From: Sulfurimonadaceae bacterium | GTDB lineage: Bacteria > Campylobacterota > Campylobacteria > Campylobacterales > Sulfurimonadaceae | DNA length: 38,438 nt | Assembly: GCA_016744905.1 (NCBI GenBank) | Contig: JADGDM010000004.1 | Location: forward strand, 4,223 to 42,660 | Direction of reading: 5' to 3' | Shown: piece after piece, positions 22,955-38,438 of the stretch | Layout: every line of letters starts with the position of its first letter | Position numbering within the stretch: the stretch's first letter is position 1 | Notes under the pieces: generated by a model | Database searches by the model: none | What the model saw: the letters and a program-made list of their open reading frames with translations, nothing else | Told to the model about the DNA's origin: nothing | Made by a program: the position numbers and the translations under genes

Positions 22955-24000
22955 TAAAAAGTCTTTAAAGTTTCATATGCGGTATTTCGAATTGCTGCCG
23001 TCTCACCCAGATCTTGAATAAGTTTCACCATCTCATCTTCTACCATTCTATATCCCGCACCCGCAGAGCGAACTACATTCTCTTCCATCATGGTTGAGCC
23101 TAAGTCATTGGCTCCATACTTGAGTGCCATTTGACCGATGTATGGCCCTTGTGTCACCCATGAACTTTGAATATTTTTTACATTATCTAAAAAAAGTCGA
23201 CTGACGGCTAAAAGGCGTAAGTAGCGATTTGATGACTGTTTTTCAATATCTGGATATTTTTCCATTAGTTTGGTATTTTGACCTTGAAATGACCACATAA
23301 TAAAAGCACGAAAGCCCCCTGTCTCATCTTGAAGTTTTCGTACCATATTCCAATGCTCGATAATCTCTTCATCCGTTTCAACTGTTCCAAACATCATAGT
23401 AGCCGTTGATTTGATACCCAATTCATGCGCTTGACGATGCACATCAATCCAAACATGTGAGTCATGTTTTTTAGGCGCAATAATATCACGTACTCGATCA
23501 CTTAAAATCTCTGCACCTGCACCAGGAATTGAAGACAAACCCTTATCTTTAAGTCTTTGTAGACACTCTTTAAGGGTGATTTTTGAGTAGCGCGCTATAT
23601 AATCAAGCTCGATAGCTGAAAAAGCATGAATGGTAATTTGTGGATATTTCTCATGAATATGTCCCACTAGGTCTTCATAAAAATCTATTTTCAACTTAGG
23701 ATGAACGCCCCCTTGAAAAAGTATTTGTGTCCCGCCAATAGCAACCAATTCATCAATTTTTTCATCAATCTGCTCAAAGGTTAAGATATACGCATCATCA
23801 TCTTTTGCATGTCGGTAAAATGCACAAAAGTCACAATCAACCCAACAAACATTGGTATAGTTGATATTTCTATCTATCACAAAAGTTGTCACACCCTTAG
23901 GATGTAACTCTTTTTTTCGCTCACTAGCGCGCTGACCTAATTCTAAAAGAGGTGCCTCTTTAATTAGTGTTAGTGCTTCTTCACTTGTTAATCTACTCAT
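22954..24000 (-). CDS. mqnC: Cyclic dehypoxanthine futalosine synthase, radical SAM
   Basis: A radical S-adenosylmethionine enzyme of the futalosine route to menaquinone, which cyclises dehypoxanthine futalosine. The [4Fe-4S] cluster motif CxxxCxxC is Cys52, Cys56 and Cys59 in NYTNVCWVDCDFCAFYR. The GGTQILFQGGVHPKL and GAGAEILSDRVRD segments match the MqnC/MqnE family. Of the two, the sequence fits MqnC better (348 residues, the FQGQNTKL region), but the paralogue MqnE cannot be excluded by eye. Campylobacterota use this pathway instead of the Men pathway. The ATG overlaps the stop of the upstream cytochrome gene (TAATG). Linkage to a multihaem cytochrome makes sense, since menaquinol would be the electron donor. 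Confidence 0.9.
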   Translation of the reverse strand: MSRLTSEEALTLIKEAPLLELGQRASERKKELHPKGVTTFVIDRNINYTNVCWVDCDFCAFYRHAKDDDAYILTFEQIDEKIDELVAIGGTQILFQGGVHPKLKIDFYEDLVGHIHEKYPQITIHAFSAIELDYIARYSKITLKECLQRLKDKGLSSIPGAGAEILSDRVRDIIAPKKHDSHVWIDVHRQAHELGIKSTATMMFGTVETDEEIIEHWNMVRKLQDETGGFRAFIMWSFQGQNTKLMEKYPDIEKQSSNRYLRLLAVSRLFLDNVKNIQSSWVTQGPYIGQMALKYGANDLGSTMMEENVVRSAGAGYRMVEDEMVKLIQDLGETAAIRNTAYETLKTF

Positions 24001-26387
24001 TAAAAGCGTCTCCTTTTTTTACGTCTTAAAAATAGAAACCATAGAACAAATAAGCTAATCACTAAGACTATACCTACCTGTGTCCAAGCTCCAATATGTA
24101 AGATTTTATTTAAAATATTATTGTGTTGTTTTTTATCTATATTTAATGATGTCATCTGCGCAATATGCGCCATAGTTGAAATCGCTAAATCTCCTTGCGG
24201 TATATCTTGATGACAAGATAGACAGACACCACGGCGATCAAGCTTAGCGCGCTGCGCTTTGTCTAAAGGCTGAGAGAGTTTCCAGTGATGTCCCACCGTC
24301 ATTAGCTGCGTCCCATTTTCATCAATAAAACTAGAATAATCAGTGGTAAGATTTTTAATTGCCGGTACTTGTTGATCTGTGCGTTTAGGCAATACTTGCA
24401 TATCTGCATCCATCAAATCAACAATAAAATCTTTTCTAGGATCGGAAAAATATTTACCAGAACCGATACCCAAGCCTAGGGCTTTTTCTGAGGTATGACA
24501 AGATTCACATTCACGGGCACGTTTTGTAATAGTATGCGGTTGAACAGGTGACATATCAATAGCATTTTGTCCCTCTTCTCCTGCGCCTTCTACATTAGGA
24601 ATTTTAAAGATATGATTTTGAATCAGTGCTTTTCCATCCGCCCCAATCACTGTCGCAGTTACCTGACATCCAGGTATAACAGGAGTCACACGTCCTTCAC
24701 CGTTTTGAGCCAAGGCAGGATCTTCCCATCGTAAATATGAACGGGTTTCAGTTACCTTACCAGGAACCAAATACTTCTTTAAATCACGCATGCCACCTGT
24801 CGCTCCATGTATGTCAGAGTCATGTGAAGCCGCTAAATAATCCACATTTTTTTGACCCTTAGAGTAATCAACCTTCACATGACAACCATAACACTGAGGT
24901 GCCCAAGTTGCGTGACAGGTATAGCACTCTAAGTCATCCGTATGCGCACTAATTTCATCCATGGCCACTAATGCTTTTTTAGAGAGTTTTTCTTGTTCTT
25001 TTAGTAATTTAAGTGGTTTAAGTTCGATATCTTTTCCAGAAGCAAGATGCATTAAGACCTTGTTTCCATCACGAGAAGCATGAATCAAAGGGTTCCCACG
25101 AGCGGTTAAAATATATCCATCTAGAGGATCATGTGTTGTACCCATTTTTAGATACTCTGCCATGATTTTTGTAGTACCACGACCTTTACCTGTTGCATGG
25201 GTTGTATTAAACTCATCACTATAACCCAAAGGCAATTCCCAAGGATACGACTTCGTTGTTCCATGACAATCTTGACACTCTACTTCAACTGCACCTAAAT
25301 TCGCACCACTTAAAAAACCATCTCCATGCATATCATTAGATGTGTGACAATCTTGACACAACATCCCTTTTTGATAGTGGATGTCTTCAGTTAAATGAAG
25401 ATAACGTTTTGTATGTAGTTTAGGTTGTCCATTACCCTCATCATCAAAGGTAGACTGATACTCGGTCTCCATCATTCCTTGATATGAAACCCCGATACGT
25501 TTTCCACGATTATGACACGTTGAACAGGTTTCAACGGGAACACCAGAGTACTCTTTATCATGTACCTTTACTTTGGTTTTACGAGAACTTTGAATCGCAT
25601 GCACCAACATATGTCCATGCTCTTTCTTATTGATACTTTTGTCATCGCCTTCGTAATAACCTTCATTCGAGTAAGGCACATGACACGAAGCACAACCAAT
25701 TCCTCTATAGTCTCCGCGTTTATTACGACCTTTTGAACCGGTATGACAACGTAAACACTCTTGACGAAGATAAGTATAAACTGCTAAAGAAGGGTTTTCA
25801 GTGACTTCTTCTATGGTTGGTGCTTGAGGAATTTCTGTTTGTTCAGTAGGGAAACCTTGAGGTTCCATCTTTGAGAGTTTTTCCATATAGTCACGGTAAG
25901 TATTTGTCCCTAAGCGACTGTGTGGATCAGCCGGATTTTTAGTATCATAGTTGGCACTTTTATGAGAATAACCCTCATTTTCACCAAAGGCCCACTGTGC
26001 GCCTTGTATTTTTCCACCCTCTGTCATCATCAAAGAGTTCATCTGTGCGCCCACTTGTTCAGCATGGCACATTCCACAGGTGTTTTGATTTATCCATGAG
26101 CTACCAGGCGCAGGATAGTACTCTTTAGGTCCCTTATGTGTTTTGAAGTACTCTACCGTTCCCGAGTGAGAACGTTTTTTATTTTTAGTGCTGGGATTTC
26201 CACCATGACAAACAATACAGTCATTGCCCGTATGTCCCGCTTTATCAGCAACTTTTAAGATGGCTTTCATCATTTCAGAGTCATGAGAACGAATATCTTC
26301 GATTCCCTCATGGCACTCAACACAAGTATTTTTTTGTGCAAAAAGAGAGAACGATAAAAATAGCACTAAAAATAAAATTTTATTCAA
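24000..26387 (-). CDS. Membrane-anchored dodecahaem c-type cytochrome
   Basis: A 795-residue periplasmic cytochrome with a signal peptide (MNKILFLVLFLSFSLFA) and 12 CxxCH haem c attachment motifs: CVECH, CIVCH, CGMCH, CLRCH, CASCH, CSTCH, CQDCH twice, CYTCH, CYGCH, CESCH and CLSCH. One further cysteine (PGCQV) is outside any motif. A C-terminal transmembrane helix (about 765-785) with a basic RRKKRRRF tail anchors it in the inner membrane with the haems outside. The frame starts at TTG at 26387, with no clear Shine-Dalgarno; no in-frame ATG precedes the signal peptide. It lies 30 bases after nusB and overlaps mqnC. It probably carries electrons between the menaquinone pool and an unidentified acceptor. 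The specific reaction is not recognisable; no CX15CH haem of the MccA type is present. Confidence 0.88.
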   Translation of the reverse strand: MNKILFLVLFLSFSLFAQKNTCVECHEGIEDIRSHDSEMMKAILKVADKAGHTGNDCIVCHGGNPSTKNKKRSHSGTVEYFKTHKGPKEYYPAPGSSWINQNTCGMCHAEQVGAQMNSLMMTEGGKIQGAQWAFGENEGYSHKSANYDTKNPADPHSRLGTNTYRDYMEKLSKMEPQGFPTEQTEIPQAPTIEEVTENPSLAVYTYLRQECLRCHTGSKGRNKRGDYRGIGCASCHVPYSNEGYYEGDDKSINKKEHGHMLVHAIQSSRKTKVKVHDKEYSGVPVETCSTCHNRGKRIGVSYQGMMETEYQSTFDDEGNGQPKLHTKRYLHLTEDIHYQKGMLCQDCHTSNDMHGDGFLSGANLGAVEVECQDCHGTTKSYPWELPLGYSDEFNTTHATGKGRGTTKIMAEYLKMGTTHDPLDGYILTARGNPLIHASRDGNKVLMHLASGKDIELKPLKLLKEQEKLSKKALVAMDEISAHTDDLECYTCHATWAPQCYGCHVKVDYSKGQKNVDYLAASHDSDIHGATGGMRDLKKYLVPGKVTETRSYLRWEDPALAQNGEGRVTPVIPGCQVTATVIGADGKALIQNHIFKIPNVEGAGEEGQNAIDMSPVQPHTITKRARECESCHTSEKALGLGIGSGKYFSDPRKDFIVDLMDADMQVLPKRTDQQVPAIKNLTTDYSSFIDENGTQLMTVGHHWKLSQPLDKAQRAKLDRRGVCLSCHQDIPQGDLAISTMAHIAQMTSLNIDKKQHNNILNKILHIGAWTQVGIVLVISLFVLWFLFLRRKKRRRF

Positions 26388-28197: not shown

Positions 28198-28215
28198 AGT
28201 GCTATAAAAAGCACT
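28198..28215 (-). terminator. Possible terminator after the M14 carboxypeptidase gene
   Basis: AGTGCT and AGCACT form a perfect 6-bp stem with a 6-base loop, starting 5 bases past the stop of the carboxypeptidase gene. The sequence after it on the minus strand (TTAAACTC) has only a short T run, so termination may be weak. The rest of the 115-base gap to kdsA holds only the kdsA promoter. Confidence 0.5.
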
Positions 28216-28220
28216 CTAAT

Positions 28221-30809
28221 TTATTTTTTTAAGTATTGAACTACAGCAGGTTCTGAGTAGTTTGGAACATTATCATAAGCAAATACTGCGTAATATTTAG
28301 ATGTTCCCTTGTCTCCAAAATTGTCATAAGTATAACTGTCTTTACCACCAAAAAGCTTTTGTCCATCAAATGGAGAACATGGTATATGGAAAGGATTTTT
28401 CACCACCACAACACCAGCGAAGTCTTCATCTTTTGGATTATCCCATGTCAGTTTTATTAAACCTTCATCAAGTGTATATTTAAGGTTTTTAACGCTTTCA
28501 AGAGCATTACGGCGTTTTTTGATATAACTCATAACCAGCTTTGGACGATGAACTCTCTTTTTATCTACCCATTCAACACTCTGAGATTTATTAAAACTTT
28601 TTTCACTGGTCGCGTGGATAACCAGCAAAAGTTTTTCTCCAGCTTGAGTAATTTCGACCATTTCTTGAAGAGCGTGGCTATCAAAAATCAGTTTCTGATT
28701 TTTATCGTCTTTAATGACTTCGATACTCATATCATAACCAAGACGTTCTATAACATCACGACGTTTAATGGCATCATAAGACTTTTCACCCTTATTCACT
28801 TGAACCATCTCTACGTGATAACGTAAATTATTGGCTGAGTTAATATTTAAGGCTTCGAGTTCTAATGAACAACTCGCGATAATAGTCGTATCTAAATCAG
28901 GCATCTGCGAAAGATCAAATTCAACACAGCCATAAATAGTATCACCATTATTATCAAAACCACTTAATAATGTTCCCTCAGTAGTCTTATTTTTCGCGAT
29001 ACTTACTTCTCTAAATGACTGTACTTCAAGATGGGCTTCATTAAGTGTATATGAGATATCCAATTTTGGTCTAAAGCTCAGACCTCCACTGAATTTTCCA
29101 TATCCAATATCCCATTGCATCAACTGAGAAGCTCTGTCTTCAGGAAGTACTTTTGGTCCTTCCATTCTAAAAGTAATACTTCTACGTTTTAGTGCATTCA
29201 TCAACAGAGCACGCTCTTGTTCTGCAAATTGATACGTTCTCCAGATGCCTTGCGAGAGTTGCTGTGACTTGGTAGGCTTACCAACATATCCCAACATCTT
29301 GGCTTCTTTAACCTCTGTAAAACTAGAAAGGTTACTCACACTATCGCTATCCATCATTCCCACACGCCACTCACCAAAACGCTCAACTTGAACCGATACA
29401 CGGTTCATCGGGTAATAAGAGATAAATGCGGATGTAATAATCGCATTTTCAGGAATAGTGTCAAGAGAAAAAGTTGTTACACCATAACATTCACCCTTAC
29501 TATTGGAAACACCTACAAAAAGAGAGTTTTCTCCAAAGTGTTCACCATTTTTCTGCGTCTTTTCACCTACATAACCAACTTGTTCTTTGGTTGGATAGAG
29601 GATTTTAGCAAACATATTGAACTCAGGATTGGTGCGTACTGCAATCACTGGAGCAAATGGTGATTTGATATAACGTTTTTTACATACCGCACGAATAAAA
29701 TAAAAATACGTCGTCGCTGAATCAATGTGTTTGTCTACAAAGCTAAGAGATTTTGTAATTCCTACACGATTATCACTTTCACAAAAACCCTTCTCTTTTT
29801 TAGAGCGATAAATTTCAAAGTAAACTGTCTCATGGATAGGATATTCCCAAGTTAATTCAATCTCTTTTGCCTCAGCGCGAGAAGCGATAAAATTATCAAC
29901 ACGTGGGAGTTTATTCGTTTTATCATAATTCGGTGCTTCACTCAGTGCATGCATCAAAGCTGGAATATTTTCATTAATATTTTCAGACATATTTTCTTTA
30001 TAATCACTAATATTTCTACTACCAACTTCAACTACTAAAGAGAGTGCCCCTTGTGCGTAATAAAACTCACGTCCGCTACCTGAGATAAGGTGAACAGGTG
30101 GTTTACCCATATGTACGCCATACTCACGACCACTGTACTTTCTAATCTCTTCTGCCATATTTGCCGAGAGAACATTTAAATCGGTCGCTTCTAAATCATC
30201 TTCATGAATAAAGTTATGTGCAGGAAAAATTACATTTCCTTGGGAGTGATAATCAAGTGCTATCGTTATGTTTGAATGGTCTTCTGTAAAGTTTTTAAGT
30301 GCCAAAGTCTCTGGCTCAGAAAAAGCAGCAGGGCCACTATAAACATTTGAAGTTGTGTTTTTATTGGGGGTAAAACCTACCGAAAAGTTACGGTTTAAAT
30401 CTACACCAAAAGAGCCATCAGCATTTTGACGTCTATTTTTTCTCCAAAAAGCAAAGTGATTTCTTGAATACTCAAAACCATCAGGATTCGCACAAGGTAC
30501 TAAGTACATCGTAGCGCGTGAGAGAAAGCTTTTAAGTTGTGGATCATAATCAATATATTCTAAAACATACTTACCAAAAGCCAATCCTAACTCAATTCCA
30601 ATCCACTCTCTAGCGTGAATACTTCCTGTATAAAAAAGTGCTGGTTTTTCATCTGCGAATTCCATATCATTACTCAAAGTAATGGCTACAATATCTCTGT
30701 CTTCCCAAGTTTTACCAATTGATTCAACTTTAAAGATGTGGGGGTGAGTTTTTTGTGCGGCTGTAAAAAATGCCACACACTCGTCGTACGAACTGTACTG
30801 TTCTCTCAT
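28221..30809 (-). CDS. M14 zinc carboxypeptidase with FN3 and DNRLRE-like modules, no signal peptide
   Basis: An 862-residue protein. The N-terminal ~290 residues are an M14 (carboxypeptidase A/B-type) domain with all key residues: zinc ligands His65 and Glu68 (SIHAREW) and His188 (DYHSQG), substrate-binding region RKNRR (123-127) and DLNRNF, and catalytic Glu261 (LVVEVG). A fibronectin-III-like domain (~303-393) follows, then two beta modules like DNRLRE domains (~396-590 and ~592-770) and a second FN3-like domain (~775-862). Such appendages are usually extracellular, yet the start MREQYSSYDE has no signal peptide. The upstream gap of 26 bases, containing AGGAAT, leaves no room for one. It is the last gene of the M20/ATP-grasp operon, so it probably removes C-terminal residues that the ligases add, or processes a related peptide. 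Confidence 0.85.
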   Translation of the reverse strand: MREQYSSYDECVAFFTAAQKTHPHIFKVESIGKTWEDRDIVAITLSNDMEFADEKPALFYTGSIHAREWIGIELGLAFGKYVLEYIDYDPQLKSFLSRATMYLVPCANPDGFEYSRNHFAFWRKNRRQNADGSFGVDLNRNFSVGFTPNKNTTSNVYSGPAAFSEPETLALKNFTEDHSNITIALDYHSQGNVIFPAHNFIHEDDLEATDLNVLSANMAEEIRKYSGREYGVHMGKPPVHLISGSGREFYYAQGALSLVVEVGSRNISDYKENMSENINENIPALMHALSEAPNYDKTNKLPRVDNFIASRAEAKEIELTWEYPIHETVYFEIYRSKKEKGFCESDNRVGITKSLSFVDKHIDSATTYFYFIRAVCKKRYIKSPFAPVIAVRTNPEFNMFAKILYPTKEQVGYVGEKTQKNGEHFGENSLFVGVSNSKGECYGVTTFSLDTIPENAIITSAFISYYPMNRVSVQVERFGEWRVGMMDSDSVSNLSSFTEVKEAKMLGYVGKPTKSQQLSQGIWRTYQFAEQERALLMNALKRRSITFRMEGPKVLPEDRASQLMQWDIGYGKFSGGLSFRPKLDISYTLNEAHLEVQSFREVSIAKNKTTEGTLLSGFDNNGDTIYGCVEFDLSQMPDLDTTIIASCSLELEALNINSANNLRYHVEMVQVNKGEKSYDAIKRRDVIERLGYDMSIEVIKDDKNQKLIFDSHALQEMVEITQAGEKLLLVIHATSEKSFNKSQSVEWVDKKRVHRPKLVMSYIKKRRNALESVKNLKYTLDEGLIKLTWDNPKDEDFAGVVVVKNPFHIPCSPFDGQKLFGGKDSYTYDNFGDKGTSKYYAVFAYDNVPNYSEPAVVQYLKK

Positions 30810-30835
30810 ATACTTATTCCTAAATTATTCTAAAA

Positions 30836-32161
30836 TTATTTAAACGATTTTGCCCATTGGCTAGCCAATTGAGCATCGATAAAGTCTAGCGCACTGATAT
30901 CAGAAAAGCTTTTCACTTTTTTAGTATCAATTAACTCTTTAATTTGAACTGCTGATTCATCATCCATGCCATGAAGTGTCATCAGCTCTGTTAAAGTAAG
31001 TGTTTCGATATCAAAAGCACTCTCTCCAATAACTGAACCCTCAGCAGATTTATCAATCGAGTCTGTAACGATTTTAGGTAAATCTTTCTCTTGAACTGGA
31101 GGTTCAATTGAGTCAGGTACATCACTAGGAAAAGACTCTTTTGCCATTTCCATGTCGAAGTTTCCTTTGTCTGCTAACCAGTACTCTCCATCTGCTGATG
31201 GCTCATATTTTGAGAAATAGAGGTGACGTAGTGTTCTGAGAACAGCTGGATTCATTTTTCCCAACTCTTCCCAAGAGAATAGTGGAACATGAGGCATTCT
31301 AAAACGTCCATCACTTAAGTCCCACATAATGTACTGACCAATCCAATCTCTGATGTATGGAAAGGCTGCAAAGGCAGTCGCACACTCTAAGATGTATGGC
31401 TCAAGTGTATTTTCATCAATTGCAATATCACAAGCCCAATACTCAGCTTTTGCTGCTTTAGAGGCTTTAACCGCAAGTTCAAGTGCATTCATAGGAACAT
31501 TTTCGTAGCTCATAGAACCACCCTGAGAGGTGTTTGTAATCCACTCACCTGTGCCTGAGTAACGCCAGAAAGCACAAACAGGTTTATGACCAATCAACAT
31601 AACACGAAGATCTCCACTGTCTTTAAGAGGAATCGCATCTTGAGAGTACATAGGTACATATTTCTCTTTGTCAAAAAGTGCACGCGCCTCTTTATAGTTA
31701 TCTACTTTGTGAACAAAATAGCCACCATAGTTTGATGGTCCATAAGAACGTTTAACAATCTGAGGATATTTTGCTTCATTTTTAAAGTAATCATCCCCTT
31801 TTTTAAGGTCATAGTTGATAGCAGTTTTAGGTTGTTGAAGATCATATTTATCACAAAAAAGTGTTACATTCTCTTTTGATTTATTTGGGAACTGTGTCTC
31901 AACAGATGGCAAAAAACGAACATGTGGAAGAGCAGCAGAGATCTCTTTGAAAGTTTCATACGCTGTTGCTGGAATATTACCCACCAATACATCAATTTTT
32001 TTATTACGCACTTCATTAATAAAACGTGTCTTGTCATTTCCCCAGTGGTAAACAACTTGTTCAATTTTGTCAGGCCACCCCTTAAAGTTACTAAAGTGAA
32101 AGAACTGCATTACGTAGTCCATATATAAAAATCCGAGTTTAGGTAGTTTTTGCTTTGCCAT
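30836..32161 (-). CDS. ATP-grasp ligase with a C-terminal helix-hairpin-helix-like tail
   Basis: A 441-residue cytoplasmic protein of the ATP-grasp superfamily, whose members form amide or peptide bonds through an acyl-phosphate. Visible features are Lys137 in IVKRSYG, the flexible loop GPSNYGG, DLRVMLIG (Arg186), the NTSQGG element near 210-215, Asp245 in WACDIAID and Glu259 in YILECATAF. The usual ExN metal motif reads Glu-Cys-Ala here, so one expected Mg ligand is missing. Residues ~390-441 (LTELMTLHGMDDESAVQIKE, then a second similar hairpin) resemble a helix-hairpin-helix. AAAGGAT precedes the ATG, 13 bases after the smaller ATP-grasp gene. The substrate is unknown. The sequence family is not one I can name, and its partner enzyme is much shorter. 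Confidence 0.75.
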   Translation of the reverse strand: MAKQKLPKLGFLYMDYVMQFFHFSNFKGWPDKIEQVVYHWGNDKTRFINEVRNKKIDVLVGNIPATAYETFKEISAALPHVRFLPSVETQFPNKSKENVTLFCDKYDLQQPKTAINYDLKKGDDYFKNEAKYPQIVKRSYGPSNYGGYFVHKVDNYKEARALFDKEKYVPMYSQDAIPLKDSGDLRVMLIGHKPVCAFWRYSGTGEWITNTSQGGSMSYENVPMNALELAVKASKAAKAEYWACDIAIDENTLEPYILECATAFAAFPYIRDWIGQYIMWDLSDGRFRMPHVPLFSWEELGKMNPAVLRTLRHLYFSKYEPSADGEYWLADKGNFDMEMAKESFPSDVPDSIEPPVQEKDLPKIVTDSIDKSAEGSVIGESAFDIETLTLTELMTLHGMDDESAVQIKELIDTKKVKSFSDISALDFIDAQLASQWAKSFK

Positions 32162-32174
32162 TAGTGATATCCTT

Positions 32175-33074
32175 TTATTTATTTACTGTACGATCGATTA
32201 GATCAACTATTTTTTCTATTTTAAGGTCATTAAAATTAAGTCCAAACTCCTCTTGCTCAGGTGTTGCAAAAGCAGGAATTCCATTCACTTCAAGAACCAC
32301 ATACTCTTCACGCTCTTTATCATAAAGAATATCAACCCCTGCAATTTCTAATCCCGTTGCAGCCGTTGCTCTTTTAGCTACATCAATGATTTCATCATTT
32401 GCATCGCGTAAAATCACACTACCACCAGAGGTGATATTGGTTCTCCACTCTCTGTCATTGGCCTTACGTCCGTAACATGAGATAAAATGACCATCAACGA
32501 TATCTACACGAAAGTCACTGTAATCATTTTCGATAAAACGCTCAACATAAATATGACGGTTATCGCCTTGATTGATTGATGGCATCAGTGCATCTAAACC
32601 CTCTGGGTTTTCAATAAGAGCAAGTCCCGCTCCACCCCATCCATCAACGGGTTTATAAACCATCTTCCCCCACTCTTTAAGCTTTTCATAAAGACCTTCA
32701 GGGCGCTCACGATGACACATATAAAAATCAGAAGTACGAACATTTTCTTGATTTAAAGCCAAGGCTGAACGCATCTTGTCTTCTGCCAGAGCAAAAGAGT
32801 CATAATTGTTTATCATAGGGATGGTACGACCCAATGTTTGATATTGATACAACTGCGCAGTTGTCTGCTCACCTGCGTTGTATGAGAAGAACAAATCAAG
32901 AGAAAACATATTAACGTTATTTAAAATAATACCTTCATTACTTGACTCAGCAAAACGAAGATCCAGATTATTAATAACAAAAATATCACGCTCACGAAGC
33001 AAATTAATCATCTTCTTTTCGATCTTTGTTCCCCCACCATTTTGGTACATCCACATTCCGATTGTTTTTGACAT
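32175..33074 (-). CDS. RimK-like ATP-grasp ligase
   Basis: A 299-residue cytoplasmic enzyme with a complete ATP-grasp set: Lys141 in MVYKPVDG, a Gly-rich loop WGGAG (146-150), Glu178, Arg189 in DFRVDIV, Asn213 in the TNITSGG element, metal ligands Asp248 (AGVDILYD) and Glu262/Asn264 (LEVNG). This is the RimK/D-Ala-D-Ala ligase-type core that joins a carboxylate to an amino group with ATP hydrolysis. RimK itself adds glutamates to ribosomal protein S6; whether this enzyme uses glutamate is unknown. The ATG comes 2 bases after the M20 stop, with AAAGGAT inside the M20 gene's end, so the two are translated together. Confidence 0.85.
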   Translation of the reverse strand: MSKTIGMWMYQNGGGTKIEKKMINLLRERDIFVINNLDLRFAESSNEGIILNNVNMFSLDLFFSYNAGEQTTAQLYQYQTLGRTIPMINNYDSFALAEDKMRSALALNQENVRTSDFYMCHRERPEGLYEKLKEWGKMVYKPVDGWGGAGLALIENPEGLDALMPSINQGDNRHIYVERFIENDYSDFRVDIVDGHFISCYGRKANDREWRTNITSGGSVILRDANDEIIDVAKRATAATGLEIAGVDILYDKEREEYVVLEVNGIPAFATPEQEEFGLNFNDLKIEKIVDLIDRTVNK

Positions 33075-33076
33075 TT

Positions 33077-34183
33077 TTATCCTTTAAAATCTAAATTTTT
33101 TGTAAAGTGTTTAAGTAAAATTGTTGTCAGATCAATGCGCTCATCAAAGCTTTTTTTATTGGCGCGCTCATGAATGGTATGATCACCATCACCAAAGGGA
33201 CCAAAACCATCAAGCGTAATCACGCCAGAAGCACTTAAAATATTGGCATCACTGACACCACCACGCGCTTCAGTTGAAAGTTTTATCTTGGCTATACGCT
33301 CAATATCTTCGATAAAACCTTTTGTACTTTCACTATACTGCATCACATCGCGCTGGATTCCGCCACCAAGTCGAGCAGTGGTTCCTTCAACATATGAAGT
33401 ATTTGTAATCTTACTTACGGATTCTAACACACGATTCTTCTCTTCTACTTGAGTATATCTGATTTCAAAAAGAATGTGTGCTTCGGGAGAGATAGTATTG
33501 GCACCAATACCACCATGAATTTTTCCAACATTAACGGTGGTTCCTTTTTCAAGATCTGTCAATGCTACCAGTTTTTGTAGTTTATAAGAAGCTTCTAAGT
33601 TTGCATCGTGCCCATCAGCGTAATGATTTCCAGCGTGTGCAGCTTTTCCCGTAATATCAATAGTAAAAGTACCTACACCTTTTCTAGCGCGTACCACTTC
33701 CATATCCACACCAGCTGCTTCAAAAACCAAACAGTAGTCATAATCCTCAGCCAATTTTGCACTTAAATGTTTTGAGTCATCACTACCCGTCTCTTCATCA
33801 CTAACAAACAGCAGATCAATATTATTGATAGCAATACCAGCGCGCTGGAGATTACGCAGTGCTTCGAGGGCAACAACATTGCCCCCTTTCATATCACAAA
33901 CACCTGGACCATAAATCCACTCAGCATCTTCACTAAAATTTTCAAATGTATTTGGAGGGAAAACGGTATCAAGATGTCCAAGTAGGAGAAGTTTTTTTCC
34001 ATCTTGATGTGTTGAAGTGTAATGACGATGTTCACCGATCAGTTCACGTTGATGCACTTCAACTTTATAACCCAGCGCGCTGAGCCATTCATCAAAAACA
34101 AGACCTACCTTATCGACGCCTGCTTTATTATTTGTATATGAGTTTATATTTATAATACGTTTTAAATCATCTAAATAATGCAT
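33077..34183 (-). CDS. M20-family metallopeptidase, glutamate-carboxypeptidase-like
   Basis: A 368-residue cytoplasmic two-zinc exopeptidase or deacylase of family M20 (carboxypeptidase G2 type). Zinc and catalytic residues are in place: His70 and Asp72 in LLGHLDTVFPP, Asp97 in GVCDMKGG, Glu130-Glu131 in SDEETGS, Glu155 in LVFEAAG, and His338 in DHTIHERAN. The RARKGVGTF and AAHAG (His183) elements belong to the dimerisation and substrate-binding domain. There is no signal peptide. It is the first gene of the four-gene operon and has a candidate promoter 35 bases upstream. In this setting it may release C-terminal amino acids (possibly glutamate) from the product of the two ATP-grasp enzymes, or supply an amino-acid substrate. 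Substrate specificity cannot be read from the sequence. Confidence 0.88.
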   Translation of the reverse strand: MHYLDDLKRIININSYTNNKAGVDKVGLVFDEWLSALGYKVEVHQRELIGEHRHYTSTHQDGKKLLLLGHLDTVFPPNTFENFSEDAEWIYGPGVCDMKGGNVVALEALRNLQRAGIAINNIDLLFVSDEETGSDDSKHLSAKLAEDYDYCLVFEAAGVDMEVVRARKGVGTFTIDITGKAAHAGNHYADGHDANLEASYKLQKLVALTDLEKGTTVNVGKIHGGIGANTISPEAHILFEIRYTQVEEKNRVLESVSKITNTSYVEGTTARLGGGIQRDVMQYSESTKGFIEDIERIAKIKLSTEARGGVSDANILSASGVITLDGFGPFGDGDHTIHERANKKSFDERIDLTTILLKHFTKNLDFKG

Positions 34184-34217: not shown

Positions 34218-34223
34218 ATTATA
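34218..34223 (-). promoter_or_regulatory. Candidate -10 for the M20/ATP-grasp/M14 operon
   Basis: TATAAT on the minus strand, 35 bases before the M20 ATG, preceded by an AT-rich run. AAGG serves as ribosome binding site. This gap (34184-34365) holds no credible small gene. Confidence 0.5.
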
Positions 34224-34365: not shown

Positions 34366-34845
34366 TTACTCCATATCTCTCACACATCGATAATGTCCAT
34401 CTTCACTTTTATCAAGAATTTTGATACTGAGCATATCATGATTTTCGTCGAACTCATATCGAACATTAATAAAATAATATGCTTTATTTACCGGGTCGAC
34501 AGGACTACTTGTCGATGTCCACCCTCTTACATAATCATAACACCCCTCAGAGTCCTCCATCTCACTAGAGTTATAGTAATTTGAGGCTATTTGAATATAA
34601 GAAAGTTGCTCATGAATGTTGGGCAGACGCCAAGGTTTTTCCCCAGGAGAGACTACTATATTACGGCAAAAGTCAACCGCATCCGCCCATGTGCCACTAT
34701 AACCCCAATCATCTCCATTCGCACTATGGCTATTTTCTAAATTGCCCCGTGAATCAATATAAACATCATTCACAGCATGCATAGATATACAGTTACTCAT
34801 AGCAACACCGCTTAACACTACAAAAATAAATACAAAAGCTTTCAT
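34366..34845 (-). CDS. Small secreted protein with a DUF1566-like domain
   Basis: About 159 residues from the chosen start. AAGGAG (34852-34857) lies 6 bases before the ATG at 34845 and 3 before the adjacent ATG at 34848, so the start is placed there and not at the longer-frame ATG at 34869. The signal peptide is KAFVFIFVVLSGVAMS; a Cys follows but the preceding SN does not make a good lipobox. The mature part has the DUF1566 (Lcl C-terminal) pattern: WADAVDFCRN, WRLPNIHEQLSYI, and a final HYRCVRD. This module is found at the ends of bacterial surface proteins and its function is unknown. The Shine-Dalgarno overlaps the stop codon of the giant cadherin gene upstream, so the two are translationally coupled and probably work together. 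Confidence 0.75.
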   Translation of the reverse strand: MKAFVFIFVVLSGVAMSNCISMHAVNDVYIDSRGNLENSHSANGDDWGYSGTWADAVDFCRNIVVSPGEKPWRLPNIHEQLSYIQIASNYYNSSEMEDSEGCYDYVRGWTSTSSPVDPVNKAYYFINVRYEFDENHDMLSIKILDKSEDGHYRCVRDME

Positions 34846-34855
34846 CATTATCTCC

Positions 34856-37800
34856 TTAATTCCGTACACATCTAAGTACGCCTGAACTGTTCGTTTTAAT
34901 CAACTCTCCAGTTCTAAAGTCAACCATCATCGTATGTGTTGGATACTCATACGTATTTTCACCATAAAGTGCAGTGGATACAGTAACAACCTCTCTTGTA
35001 CAGAAAATATCTTGTTGCTTTTCTTGAAATTCACTGTAATGAAAAGTACTGCTACCGTAATTGACAATACTTAGCACCTCGCGTGGTGATGGCATTCGCC
35101 AATCACTGTACCCCCCATGATTAAGTTCACTACATGCATTGTCCCTACCATTTAATTTTGCCTTATAATCACGTTCAAGATTTGAGTCTTGCCAGATCAG
35201 TTTTGTTCGGTTATCTTGCAACATTTTTTCACTCGGCGCCCCACTGCTTGTCACATTAGTAAACGCTGCTACAAGACCATTTTCTTCTTCACCATCATCT
35301 TTACTGCGTTGTGAAACCGTCTGTCCCGTCGCTAAAAGATCATAACTTTTATACAGTTGCCTACTGTACTTGTTGTATCCTACACCTGCTTCTGGTATCA
35401 GACCAAACATATCTTCAATGCTCACCTGATCTGAAAAAGAGACGTAAGTCTCTCGAGCTTTTAGCCGCGTTGTATTATCTGTTCCATAAAGATTAATAGT
35501 ATGTCGATTGTAGCGTGGCGTATAGTCTATCGTCATACTTTCATTAAAACTAGCAAGACCTTCTAGATTAAAATGCTTGGTAAAATCAGACCCAACCGTG
35601 CTCTCATTAATATCTTTAGAATAGTAGATGAAAAGACGATCATCATTTAAATCAGCTGTACCTGCGTCATCATAACTCACTGCGTTTTTAATATAAAAAT
35701 TCTGATTATACACAGGCTGAATCCTCAAACTTAGCACTTTTTCAATGCTGTTCACCCCGTCATCAATCGTGACTCCATATCTATAGATTTTACCCGCAGG
35801 AGCATCATCATGAAGCAATCCATAAACACTAAATTGCTTATCACCTTCTCTTCTTGTGGAAAGATTTAAATCTACATCTTGGCTTGTAATGCTAAAGTTG
35901 ACGATAGCCGTATCACTATCTTCTATATCAATAAGTAGATTGACACTGTCGTTCACATCAACATTAAAATCCAAACCTCCAGCAATATATGGTGCATTAT
36001 CAACAGGTGTAATATTGATGATCATATCCACAGTATTAGAGAACTCGCCCAGAGCGTCCTTAGCATAAAAAGGTATCCTAAACTCACCAGCCGTATCGGC
36101 TAGAATTTTTAAATCAATATCAGAACATTTATGACTGTCCAGATCACTCTGTTCAAAAACGAATCCTTCTGGTATACCATAAACGGTACATTTGATACTA
36201 AATTTATGCGTGTTATCATCTACCGGGAAAAAGCTTACTCTGACATCTCTATCGGAAGATGATTCGATATAATTCAGTTCGATATACTCTAAAACTGGTC
36301 CATCGTTCACAGGTATAATATCTATCTTAACTCTCTTTTCCTCGCTCCATAACGCTCCGTCAGAGACACGATAAGTAAACTCATCATAACCATTTTCATT
36401 GTTGATGGTGTTGTATCTAAAACTTCCATCTGTTGCAAAACTACTAATTCTTCCCTTGCTCGGATATGCTACTATCTCAAATACTAGGGAATCTGATTCA
36501 GGGTCCTCTCCAAGTAGAACTGAGGTAAAGTGATCATCTTCATCAACGCTATAGGTATCTGTCGTAGCAGTTGGGGCATCATTTTCATCAATTAAAACGA
36601 TAACTATGTCTGCATAGTTACTGCTTCCCGCACTGTTGATGGCATGTACGCTTAAGAATATAACTGGGAATGTCTCATAATCCAACTCTGCTTGATCTGA
36701 AACACTTATATCGCCATCAATAGATATCTCAAAGTAATCACTACCTGATCCATTCAATTCCATTGAAATAATGCTGCTGTCTCCACTTTCAAGGACAGTA
36801 ACAGAAGCAAACAAATCTCCCGTAGCCGCATGCTCAAAAAGTGTTGCATTTAAGTCAGCAAGTGTTGCTGTAGCATCGGCTATATTGTTCACATTGATAC
36901 TCAATTCAGCACTCAGACTCTCTCCCGCTTCATTACTTGCATAAACATCAAGAGCGTAACTGACTGCTGTCTCATAATCCAGTGTGCTGCCTATCGAAAC
37001 ACGCACTTCGGCATCAGCATTCACACTGAAGTTTTCACTGCCCTCTCCACTTAAACGATAGCTAGCGATTGCGCTGTCTCCAGCATCACTAATAACTACC
37101 ATACCAAGCAAGGTATCAGTAGATGCATCTTCATCAACACTTAATGTCGGTGTTATTCCTAATGTTGGAACAGACTCCGCAATATTGTTAATGTTAATCA
37201 CTACTGCTTGCTCTACCTCATGTAGACCGTCTGTAGCAATAACACTAAAACTATAACTCTGCTTATTTTCATAGTCTGCTGGTGTATCAAATTTCACCAC
37301 ATTTTCAAGAATATTCATCAAATCAGCGTCTGCACCTACTTTTAAAGAGAAGGTCACATTATCTGAGCTGTCATCATCAAAGGCATTAAGAGTAATGGCA
37401 TTTTCTAAATTTTCATCCACACTCACTGTGTAAGACCCAATAAAAAGAGGTGCAAACTCATTGACATCTTCAATATTAATGCTTATCGATTGCTCCATCT
37501 GATGTCCAACCCCATCATCTACCCTAACGATTAGACTGTATTGGGTTTTGTCTTCAAAGTTTGGTAAACTCAAAAAGCTTACTAATCCACTACCGGCATC
37601 TATCTCAAAAGCCAACTGATCAGCACCGCCTATAAGGCTGTATGTTAATGTAGCCGCATTGCTGTCTTCTGCATCAATATCAATGGCTATGCTCTGATTT
37701 TCTAGAACCGTTACAGTAGCACTTGAGGTGAACGAGAGGTTTTCACTCGTATCGTTAATATTAAGTACCGTGATAGTTACTGCCTGTTCTACTGGCGTTC

Positions 37801-38438
37801 CTCCATCACTCACTCTTGCCATAAAGGTATAGCTTCTCTGCTCTTCGATCTCATAATCAGGCGCAACTATAAAAGTAATCACACCACTCTCAGTGTTAAT
37901 ATTAAAATCAGCACTATCACCACCAGAGATAGAGTAATTGAGTGTATCTCCTACATCCGCATCGCTGGCACTTAGTGTCAGCGCGCTGGTCTGGTTTTCA
38001 TACACTGAGACAGAAGCTGAACTATTAAACAGAGGTGCATTATCATTTATATCGCTTAAATTAACAGTGATGTTCTGAATACGTGTATTGTTTGAGCTGT
38101 CTTTTGCTGTGACGTTTATTGAGTAACTCTCTTTTGTCTCAAAGTCAGGCGCATTTTTAAAGCTCAGCGCGCTACCAGCAAGCGTAAACAGACCAGCGTC
38201 AGTTCCACCTAGAGTCAGTGTTGCACTGGCATCATCCGTTGTAACATTTCCTACAACTGTCTGCTCTTCATTTACAGTAAATGTTGCAGAGCTTGTAAAG
38301 CTTGGTGCCACTTCATCCATGTCTATTAAATTAACAGTAATGTTCTGAATACGTGTATTGTTTGAGCTGTCTTTTGCTGTGACGTTTATTGAGTAACTCT
38401 CTTTTGTCTCAAAGTCAGGCGCATTTTTAAAGCTCAGC
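34856..38438 (-). CDS. Giant cadherin-repeat surface protein with a C-terminal DUF1566 domain (5' end outside window)
   Basis: The frame is open to the window edge; the first Met in the window (38320) is internal, so at least 1190 residues are seen without the N terminus. Six cadherin-type repeats of ~90-100 residues can be followed, with calcium-binding-like motifs such as DINDNAPLF, DVNEFAPLF and DENDAPT, and recurring A-x-DYE/PDFE segments. Next come a cadherin-like/tandem-95 unit (SVDEDDHFTSVLLGEDPESD) and two less regular beta domains. The last ~140 residues are a DUF1566-like module (DNRTKLIWQDSNLE, DWRMPSPREVLSIV, GVLRCVRN). Calcium-stiffened repeats suggest a long surface adhesin. Export route and signal are beyond the window. 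The next gene encodes a separate small DUF1566 protein. Confidence 0.85.
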   Translation of the reverse strand, partial: LSFKNAPDFETKESYSINVTAKDSSNNTRIQNITVNLIDMDEVAPSFTSSATFTVNEEQTVVGNVTTDDASATLTLGGTDAGLFTLAGSALSFKNAPDFETKESYSINVTAKDSSNNTRIQNITVNLSDINDNAPLFNSSASVSVYENQTSALTLSASDADVGDTLNYSISGGDSADFNINTESGVITFIVAPDYEIEEQRSYTFMARVSDGGTPVEQAVTITVLNINDTSENLSFTSSATVTVLENQSIAIDIDAEDSNAATLTYSLIGGADQLAFEIDAGSGLVSFLSLPNFEDKTQYSLIVRVDDGVGHQMEQSISINIEDVNEFAPLFIGSYTVSVDENLENAITLNAFDDDSSDNVTFSLKVGADADLMNILENVVKFDTPADYENKQSYSFSVIATDGLHEVEQAVVININNIAESVPTLGITPTLSVDEDASTDTLLGMVVISDAGDSAIASYRLSGEGSENFSVNADAEVRVSIGSTLDYETAVSYALDVYASNEAGESLSAELSINVNNIADATATLADLNATLFEHAATGDLFASVTVLESGDSSIISMELNGSGSDYFEISIDGDISVSDQAELDYETFPVIFLSVHAINSAGSSNYADIVIVLIDENDAPTATTDTYSVDEDDHFTSVLLGEDPESDSLVFEIVAYPSKGRISSFATDGSFRYNTINNENGYDEFTYRVSDGALWSEEKRVKIDIIPVNDGPVLEYIELNYIESSSDRDVRVSFFPVDDNTHKFSIKCTVYGIPEGFVFEQSDLDSHKCSDIDLKILADTAGEFRIPFYAKDALGEFSNTVDMIINITPVDNAPYIAGGLDFNVDVNDSVNLLIDIEDSDTAIVNFSITSQDVDLNLSTRREGDKQFSVYGLLHDDAPAGKIYRYGVTIDDGVNSIEKVLSLRIQPVYNQNFYIKNAVSYDDAGTADLNDDRLFIYYSKDINESTVGSDFTKHFNLEGLASFNESMTIDYTPRYNRHTINLYGTDNTTRLKARETYVSFSDQVSIEDMFGLIPEAGVGYNKYSRQLYKSYDLLATGQTVSQRSKDDGEEENGLVAAFTNVTSSGAPSEKMLQDNRTKLIWQDSNLERDYKAKLNGRDNACSELNHGGYSDWRMPSPREVLSIVNYGSSTFHYSEFQEKQQDIFCTREVVTVSTALYGENTYEYPTHTMMVDFRTGELIKTNSSGVLRCVRN
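38061..38438 (-). repeat. Near-identical 270-bp tandem repeat in the cadherin gene
   Basis: Bases 38061-38168 and 38331-38438 are identical except for one position (38069 g, 38339 a). The period is 270 bp, exactly 90 codons. The second copy runs off the window, so the array probably continues. Other cadherin units in the gene are much more diverged at DNA level, so this is a recent expansion. Confidence 0.9.

Follow-up and report, generated by a model that had tools for sequence, protein, structure and literature searches.

Within a 38,438-nt stretch of contig JADGDM010000004.1 from a Sulfurimonadaceae bacterium (assembly GCA_016744905.1; hereafter the window), four consecutive open reading frames (ORFs) on the minus strand probably encode one unstudied enzyme system, which occurs in many relatives of Campylobacter, most of them marine. 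The first encodes an M20 metallopeptidase that resembles carboxypeptidase G2 (33077–34183; 368 amino acids (aa); Pfam M20, 2.1e-21, and M20_dimer). Next are two ATP-grasp proteins, which we call GRA and GRB: GRA is a RimK/MptN-like ligase (32175–33074; 299 aa; Pfam RimK, 2.7e-18), and GRB is a second ATP-grasp ligase (30836–32161; 441 aa; Pfam RimK, 1.8e-11). The last gene encodes an M14 zinc carboxypeptidase of 862 aa, whose catalytic domain is N-terminal and lacks a prodomain (28221–30809; Pfam Peptidase_M14, 1.6e-53). The intergenic gaps are 2, 13, and 26 nt. We reproduced the coordinates and spacing of the initial annotation of this locus, and its domain names (M20, RimK-like, a second ATP-grasp, and M14) match Pfam. 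It had also reported that the proteins lack signal peptides. This was borne out across 54 loci, where none of the four families has a hydrophobic N-terminus (maximum 12-residue Kyte-Doolittle mean of 1.94). The catalytic residues that we checked are invariant in all four proteins, with 35–66 homologs per protein.

We found homologs of GRB (E ≤ 1e-70) in 60 of 200 genomes sampled from the same order. The complete four-gene set is present in 14 of 20 loci from this order, as well as in the window and on a Photobacterium replicon. In a scan of named relatives, we kept 80 of 355, mostly Sulfurimonas, the Arcobacter group, Sulfurospirillum, Nitratifractor, and Hydrogenimonas, and GRB was called in 79 of them. 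All four genes are present at 59 of these 79 loci, and several of the others end at contig borders. At some loci, M20 is divergent from GRA (head to head). The full cassette is also found in the isolate Thiomicrorhabdus heinhorstiae and in two metagenome-assembled genomes of the Desulfuromonadales type. The initial annotation had named confinement of the set to close relatives as evidence against a joint role; instead, most loci carry the full set, with other phyla included.

We rejected a wide spread outside the Campylobacterota, as occurrences there are few: one in 321 Gammaproteobacteria, one strong homolog in 198 genomes from the phylum of Desulfuromusa, and two in 63 genomes from the order of Thiomicrorhabdus, one of which has a split GRB frame. 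We also inspected weaker ATP-grasp proteins from Desulfobacterota (31–33% identity) and found no relatives of M14 or M20 beside them. Similarly, we rejected a plasmid-borne element: the only plasmid match was the Photobacterium replicon, which is 2.1 Mb.

When we clustered the neighboring ORFs of at least 60 aa, no fifth gene was common to the loci, and the flanks vary by clade. This agrees with the earlier statement that no precursor peptide is encoded nearby. Each clade has housekeeping genes of its own beside the set: Sulfurimonas has rpsP-rimM-trmD-rplS, Arcobacter has argG among others, and a GRB that has moved is flanked by efp-dnaE. Because the clusters are clade-specific, the ribosomal neighbors (rpsP-rimM-trmD-rplS, and efp) are only a weak hint about function. 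The same gene order recurs in many unrelated chromosomal contexts, so the arrangement goes beyond chance.

To examine co-inheritance, we used 80 Campylobacterota genomes selected from the sample of the order, of which 49 have an intact GRB and 31 do not (one genome, G076, has only a broken piece of GRB). M14 is present in all 49 of the GRB-positive genomes and in none of the 31 GRB-negative genomes. For both GRA and M20, the corresponding counts are 47/49 and 1/31. Several families are mixed for GRB (f1, f9, f7, f10, and f20); for instance, f1 has 4 genomes with GRB and 12 without, and f9 has 4 with and 6 without. Co-inheritance persists even for genes at separate loci. In two genomes (G016 and G126), GRB adjoins efp and the operon consists of M20-GRA-M14; in four others (G053, G066, G079, and G011), GRA is separated from GRB, and the matches to M14 and M20 lie on other contigs. 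At eight loci (L111, L114, L124, L126, L129, L131, L040, and L045), a lone GRB lies just 3' of efp, which encodes elongation factor P, and is often followed by dnaE.

The conserved gene order and the all-or-none inheritance support the suggestion of the initial annotation that the four genes work as a unit. Each family is common by itself, so one could imagine four housekeeping genes from unrelated pathways that became neighbors by chance in one clade. However, the genes co-occur in an all-or-none fashion within mixed families, even when unlinked, and the whole cassette is present in other phyla, which makes this explanation extremely improbable.

There are two clear exceptions to the all-or-none pattern: G143 has only GRB and M14, and G009 has only M20 and GRA, with a different gene after them. 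(G131 lacks GRA because its GRB runs to the end of a contig, and G175, which lacks M20, is an 87% complete genome.) Also, the pairwise distance correlation is highest for GRB and M14 (0.83); for M20 and GRA it is 0.53. These few cases suggest two writer-eraser pairs, GRB with M14 and M20 with GRA.

The fold of GRB is nearest to ArgX (3vpb; VIA-align Z = 21.0), RimK (7qyr; 20.8), and LysX (3vpd; 20.3), with a root-mean-square deviation (rmsd) of 3.4–3.8 over 261–266 residues. Its metal-binding motif is altered: instead of ExN, all 66 of the 66 homologs have E-C-A (the codons for E259-C260-A261-T262 are at 31376–31387 on the minus strand). This raises the question of whether the role of GRB is one of regulation or targeting, with ATP binding but no ligation, which would leave GRA as the sole writer. 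We consider this improbable: K137, R200, N210, D245, and E259 are invariant, and the core has 74% mean column identity among 11 diverse members. Also, PurK and PurT lack this asparagine and yet are active, so we take GRB to be probably an active ligase.

GRB usually terminates in helix-hairpin-helix (HhH) repeats. Among the 66 homologs, 32 match Pfam HHH_5 and 25 match HHH_3, with some overlap. Each type dominates in different members, and the match in single proteins is as strong as 4e-27. HhH repeats commonly bind nucleic acid; protein binding is also possible. In the window, the C-terminal domain of GRB (30839–31009, minus strand) is a degenerate HhH-type repeat with four helices in the AlphaFold model (predicted local distance difference test (pLDDT) mostly 76–91 for this block), and the equivalent domain in a homolog (L038) passes the HHH_3 cutoff (28.2 vs. 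27 bits). The source genome also has a second copy of GRB (L032:9027-10487, in G000:C35; 486 aa), which is 81–82% identical in the core. This copy has a canonical HHH_3 domain as well as a linker rich in lysine, and no GRA, M14, or M20 adjoins it. The initial annotation mentioned neither this copy nor the HhH domain, the altered metal motif of GRB, or the separate RimB-RimK pair described below.

In M14, the zinc ligands and the catalytic glutamate are intact: H65, E68, R123, N139, R140, H188, and E261 are invariant in 43 homologs. In a phmmer alignment, Arg247 (codon at 30069–30071, minus strand) aligns with the specificity position of bovine carboxypeptidase A, Ile255. This position is arginine in 42 of 43 homologs and lysine in the other. 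Arg255 confers specificity for acidic C-terminal residues in carboxypeptidase O, and a frog paralog that also has Arg255 cut a Glu-Glu substrate and left Phe-Ala and Phe-Phe uncut (PMC9925722). Because the residue at this position is basic, M14 is predicted to remove acidic C-terminal residues. The fold is closest to CPA4/CPB (VIA-align Z of about 34; rmsd 2.5 over 287 residues), and carboxypeptidase O (5mrv) scores Z = 32.5. However, carboxypeptidase O acts in the secretory pathway, whereas this M14 lacks a signal peptide and has about 560 additional residues. These C-terminal residues (28224–29909, minus strand) form an all-beta region, with a mean pLDDT of 86.9 for the model; part of the region is weakly similar to DNRLRE (NCBIfam, 2.4e-5, below the cutoff). 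When we ran fold searches with the whole models of GRB and M14, the matches listed covered the catalytic domains only, not the C-terminal parts.

The closest solved relative of M20 is carboxypeptidase G2 (CPG2; 1cg2, 2.3e-25). H70, D72, D97, E130, E131, E155, H183, N229, R242, R278, and H335 are invariant in 35 homologs. R278 aligns with R324 of CPG2 (numbering counted by hand). An arginine of this kind is common to the exopeptidases of the M20 family, so R278 does not prove specificity for glutamate. M20 scores 197 against the glutamate carboxypeptidase family PRK06133, which is below the cutoff of 349.

GRA has an intact ExN motif (E262 and N264), and K141, R203, D248, E262, and N264 are invariant in 38 homologs. 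In NCBIfam, GRA best matches MptN (5e-34), along with the rimK family; the cutoffs for MptN and CofF are not reached. Both ligases are far below every equivalog cutoff: for instance, the RimK equivalog PRK10446 requires 331 bits, and GRA and GRB score 54.7 and 17.8. The nearest relatives of the two ligases (RimK, ArgX, LysX, and MptN) are enzymes that attach glutamate or aminoadipate. Some loci have additional paralogs of GRA in or near the operon (L065:8459-10360, L094:14655-15569, and L097:7214-8161), suggesting ligases of differing specificity.

The match of GRA to MptN brings up a small-molecule pathway, in which the ATP-grasp enzymes would extend a cofactor, an osmolyte, or a thiol with a side chain of oligopeptide or polyglutamate, and the peptidases would recycle or trim this chain. 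MyfA/MyfB act in this way on methylofuran, and MptN/CofF on coenzymes of archaea. We consider this quite possible. There is a precedent for two ATP-grasp enzymes that act in series on one coenzyme, namely MyfA and MyfB (PMC8141765). However, MyfA/MyfB and MptN/CofF are not known to have dedicated peptidases, and the operon in the window has no cofactor genes nearby. More broadly, we did not find any conserved gene for scaffold biosynthesis or transport near the operon. Many of the positive records belong to genera of marine, vent, or saline habitats, which would suit an osmolyte. On the other hand, the HhH tails of GRB are difficult to account for with a small molecule, and a carboxypeptidase A-type M14 of 862 aa seems better suited to peptides or proteins.

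Alternatively, the ligases might make free short acidic peptides that act as a storage or osmotic pool with no specific target, and the carboxypeptidases would return the amino acids. In vitro, RimK and MyfB do produce polyglutamate in free form (PMC8141765, PMC11957791), and both M20 and M14 are exopeptidase types. But two distinct and strongly conserved ligases, along with an HhH domain, are more than such a pool needs, and inheritance that is so strictly all-or-none points to a specific product. We consider a peptide pool to be rather unlikely.

Our preferred hypothesis, to which we assign a probability of roughly 0.45, is that the four genes encode a self-contained cytoplasmic module whose two writer-eraser pairs attach acidic residues to a cellular target and trim them. 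GRB, which bears the HhH tail, would ligate one or more acidic residues onto a carboxylate of the target, and M14 would trim acidic residues from the C-terminal end via the Arg247 pocket. GRA would attach another residue, for instance to initiate or to branch, and the CPG2-like M20 would take this residue off. The added residue would most likely be glutamate. In most members, the target would probably be associated with nucleic acid; a nucleic-acid-bound protein is a speculative candidate. Both the pairing of writers with erasers and the reversibility are putative. We favor this hypothesis over a small-molecule pathway because GRB has HhH tails, M14 has a basic specificity pocket, and RimK and RimB set a precedent.

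RimB takes off the glutamates that RimK attaches (PMC11957791). As in that system, the module would combine an ATP-grasp glutamate writer with a dedicated protease; the fold of GRB is of the RimK type, and the sequence of GRA matches that of RimK. However, the eraser of the RimK system is an aspartic retropepsin, and here there are two zinc peptidases, with two ligases instead of one. We found no RimB-type retropepsin (PF05618) among the four genes or their conserved neighbors as read. Separately from the operon, the source genome encodes a canonical RimB-RimK pair, at an apparent RimBK locus (L142:320-2723, in G000:C40): this locus has a canonical RimK of 309 aa and a RimB-type PF05618 protein (8.3e-23), with an AstE/aspartoacylase-like protein adjoining them. 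We also considered ribosomal protein S6, which is the target of RimK and RimB. The composition of its C-terminal tail gave no support for a role as the substrate here: the tail in one GRB-negative genome (G165) is nearly the same as in a GRB-positive genome (G132).

The initial annotation had drawn a loose analogy to the glutamylation of tubulin, in which tubulin tyrosine ligase-like (TTLL) enzymes are the writers and cytosolic carboxypeptidases (CCPs) are the erasers. The basic residue in the specificity pocket of M14 strengthens this analogy: both systems have ATP-grasp-type writers and M14 erasers, with specificity for acidic C-termini (by prediction, for M14). However, M14 lacks the N-domain that is specific to CCPs; instead, the M14 domain begins at the very N-terminus. 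Among the carboxypeptidases, M14 is also nearest to types A, B, and O, and its C-terminal region is rich in beta structure; the ligases resemble RimK and LysX; M20 is an addition; and the tubulin target is absent from bacteria. A more specific version of our preferred hypothesis is a tubulin code of bacteria, in which the two ligases would add acidic tails to a nucleic-acid-bound protein and the two zinc carboxypeptidases would remove them; GRB would be targeted to this protein by HhH repeats, of which two different types would have been acquired. We view this specific version as unlikely.

Several observations weigh against our preferred hypothesis. Glutamate as the added residue follows from the families of the enzymes and not from tested binding residues. 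GRB lacks the asparagine of the ExN motif, so its putative activity is not certain. The GRB in the window keeps only the first HhH repeat, which is degenerate (GMD instead of GxG) and has no Pfam match, and some GRB proteins have no HhH repeats (L051; 381 aa). FN3- and DNRLRE-type domains, as on M14, are more common on secreted proteins. The tails of S6 are alike in GRB-positive and GRB-negative genomes. The support for co-inheritance (Fisher p = 7e-23 for M14 and 1.7e-18 for GRA and for M20) is not corrected for phylogeny, and the pairing of writers and erasers is supported by one genome in each direction.

In the LysW amino-group carrier system, a ligase of the LysX/ArgX fold acts alongside an M20 hydrolase (LysK) that releases the product, which resembles GRA or GRB together with M20. 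However, among neighboring ORFs of at least 60 aa, there is no conserved gene for a carrier near the operon, and there is no kinase, reductase, or aminotransferase. Also, the M20 is CPG2-like, and M14 has no counterpart in the LysW system. The best score against LysX is 86.4 (the cutoff is 275.6), and the score against the [LysW]-lysine hydrolase is 40.4 (the cutoff is 363). As for a graspetide precursor, the gaps of 2–26 nt leave no room for one, and there is no conserved neighbor among ORFs of at least 60 aa. We also considered anti-phage defense, which we rejected: the PADLOC models gave 0 families for all four proteins. Viral or phage relatives were rejected as well, as there is only short and weak similarity to ATP-grasp proteins (25–31% identity over about one-third of the protein).

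We did not find this gene set described in the open-licence literature; an earlier mention elsewhere is possible. In that open-licence literature, the composition of the set, a ligase with an HhH tail, and such strict co-inheritance appear to be undescribed; the enzymes are of known kinds, and there are precedents for the writer-eraser logic. Reversible tagging with amino acids has been worked out well for only a few cases in bacteria, such as RimK/RimB. The module supplies named genes and residues as handles toward an unknown modification or metabolite.

A single promoter and a single terminator for the operon are plausible. The initial annotation had placed a promoter at the head and a hairpin at the end. 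There is a TATAAT, a possible -10 box, 35 nt before the ATG of M20 (34218–34223, minus strand), but it lacks a -35 box and a consensus scan does not flag it. The hairpin directly past the stop codon of M14 is real (28198–28215, minus strand; the scan flags the plus strand), but with just 6 bp, it is at best a weak terminator.

Beyond the head of the operon is a small ORF with a weak match to Lcl_C (34366–34869), and next to it is a large repeat protein (34856–38437), which is open at the edge of the window. By eye, this protein has cadherin-like repeats and ends in a segment that resembles Lcl_C/DUF1566. At 24000–26387, many CxxCH motifs (by eye) mark a multihaem cytochrome c, whose gene adjoins a radical SAM gene of the CofH/MqnC type and an M16 peptidase.

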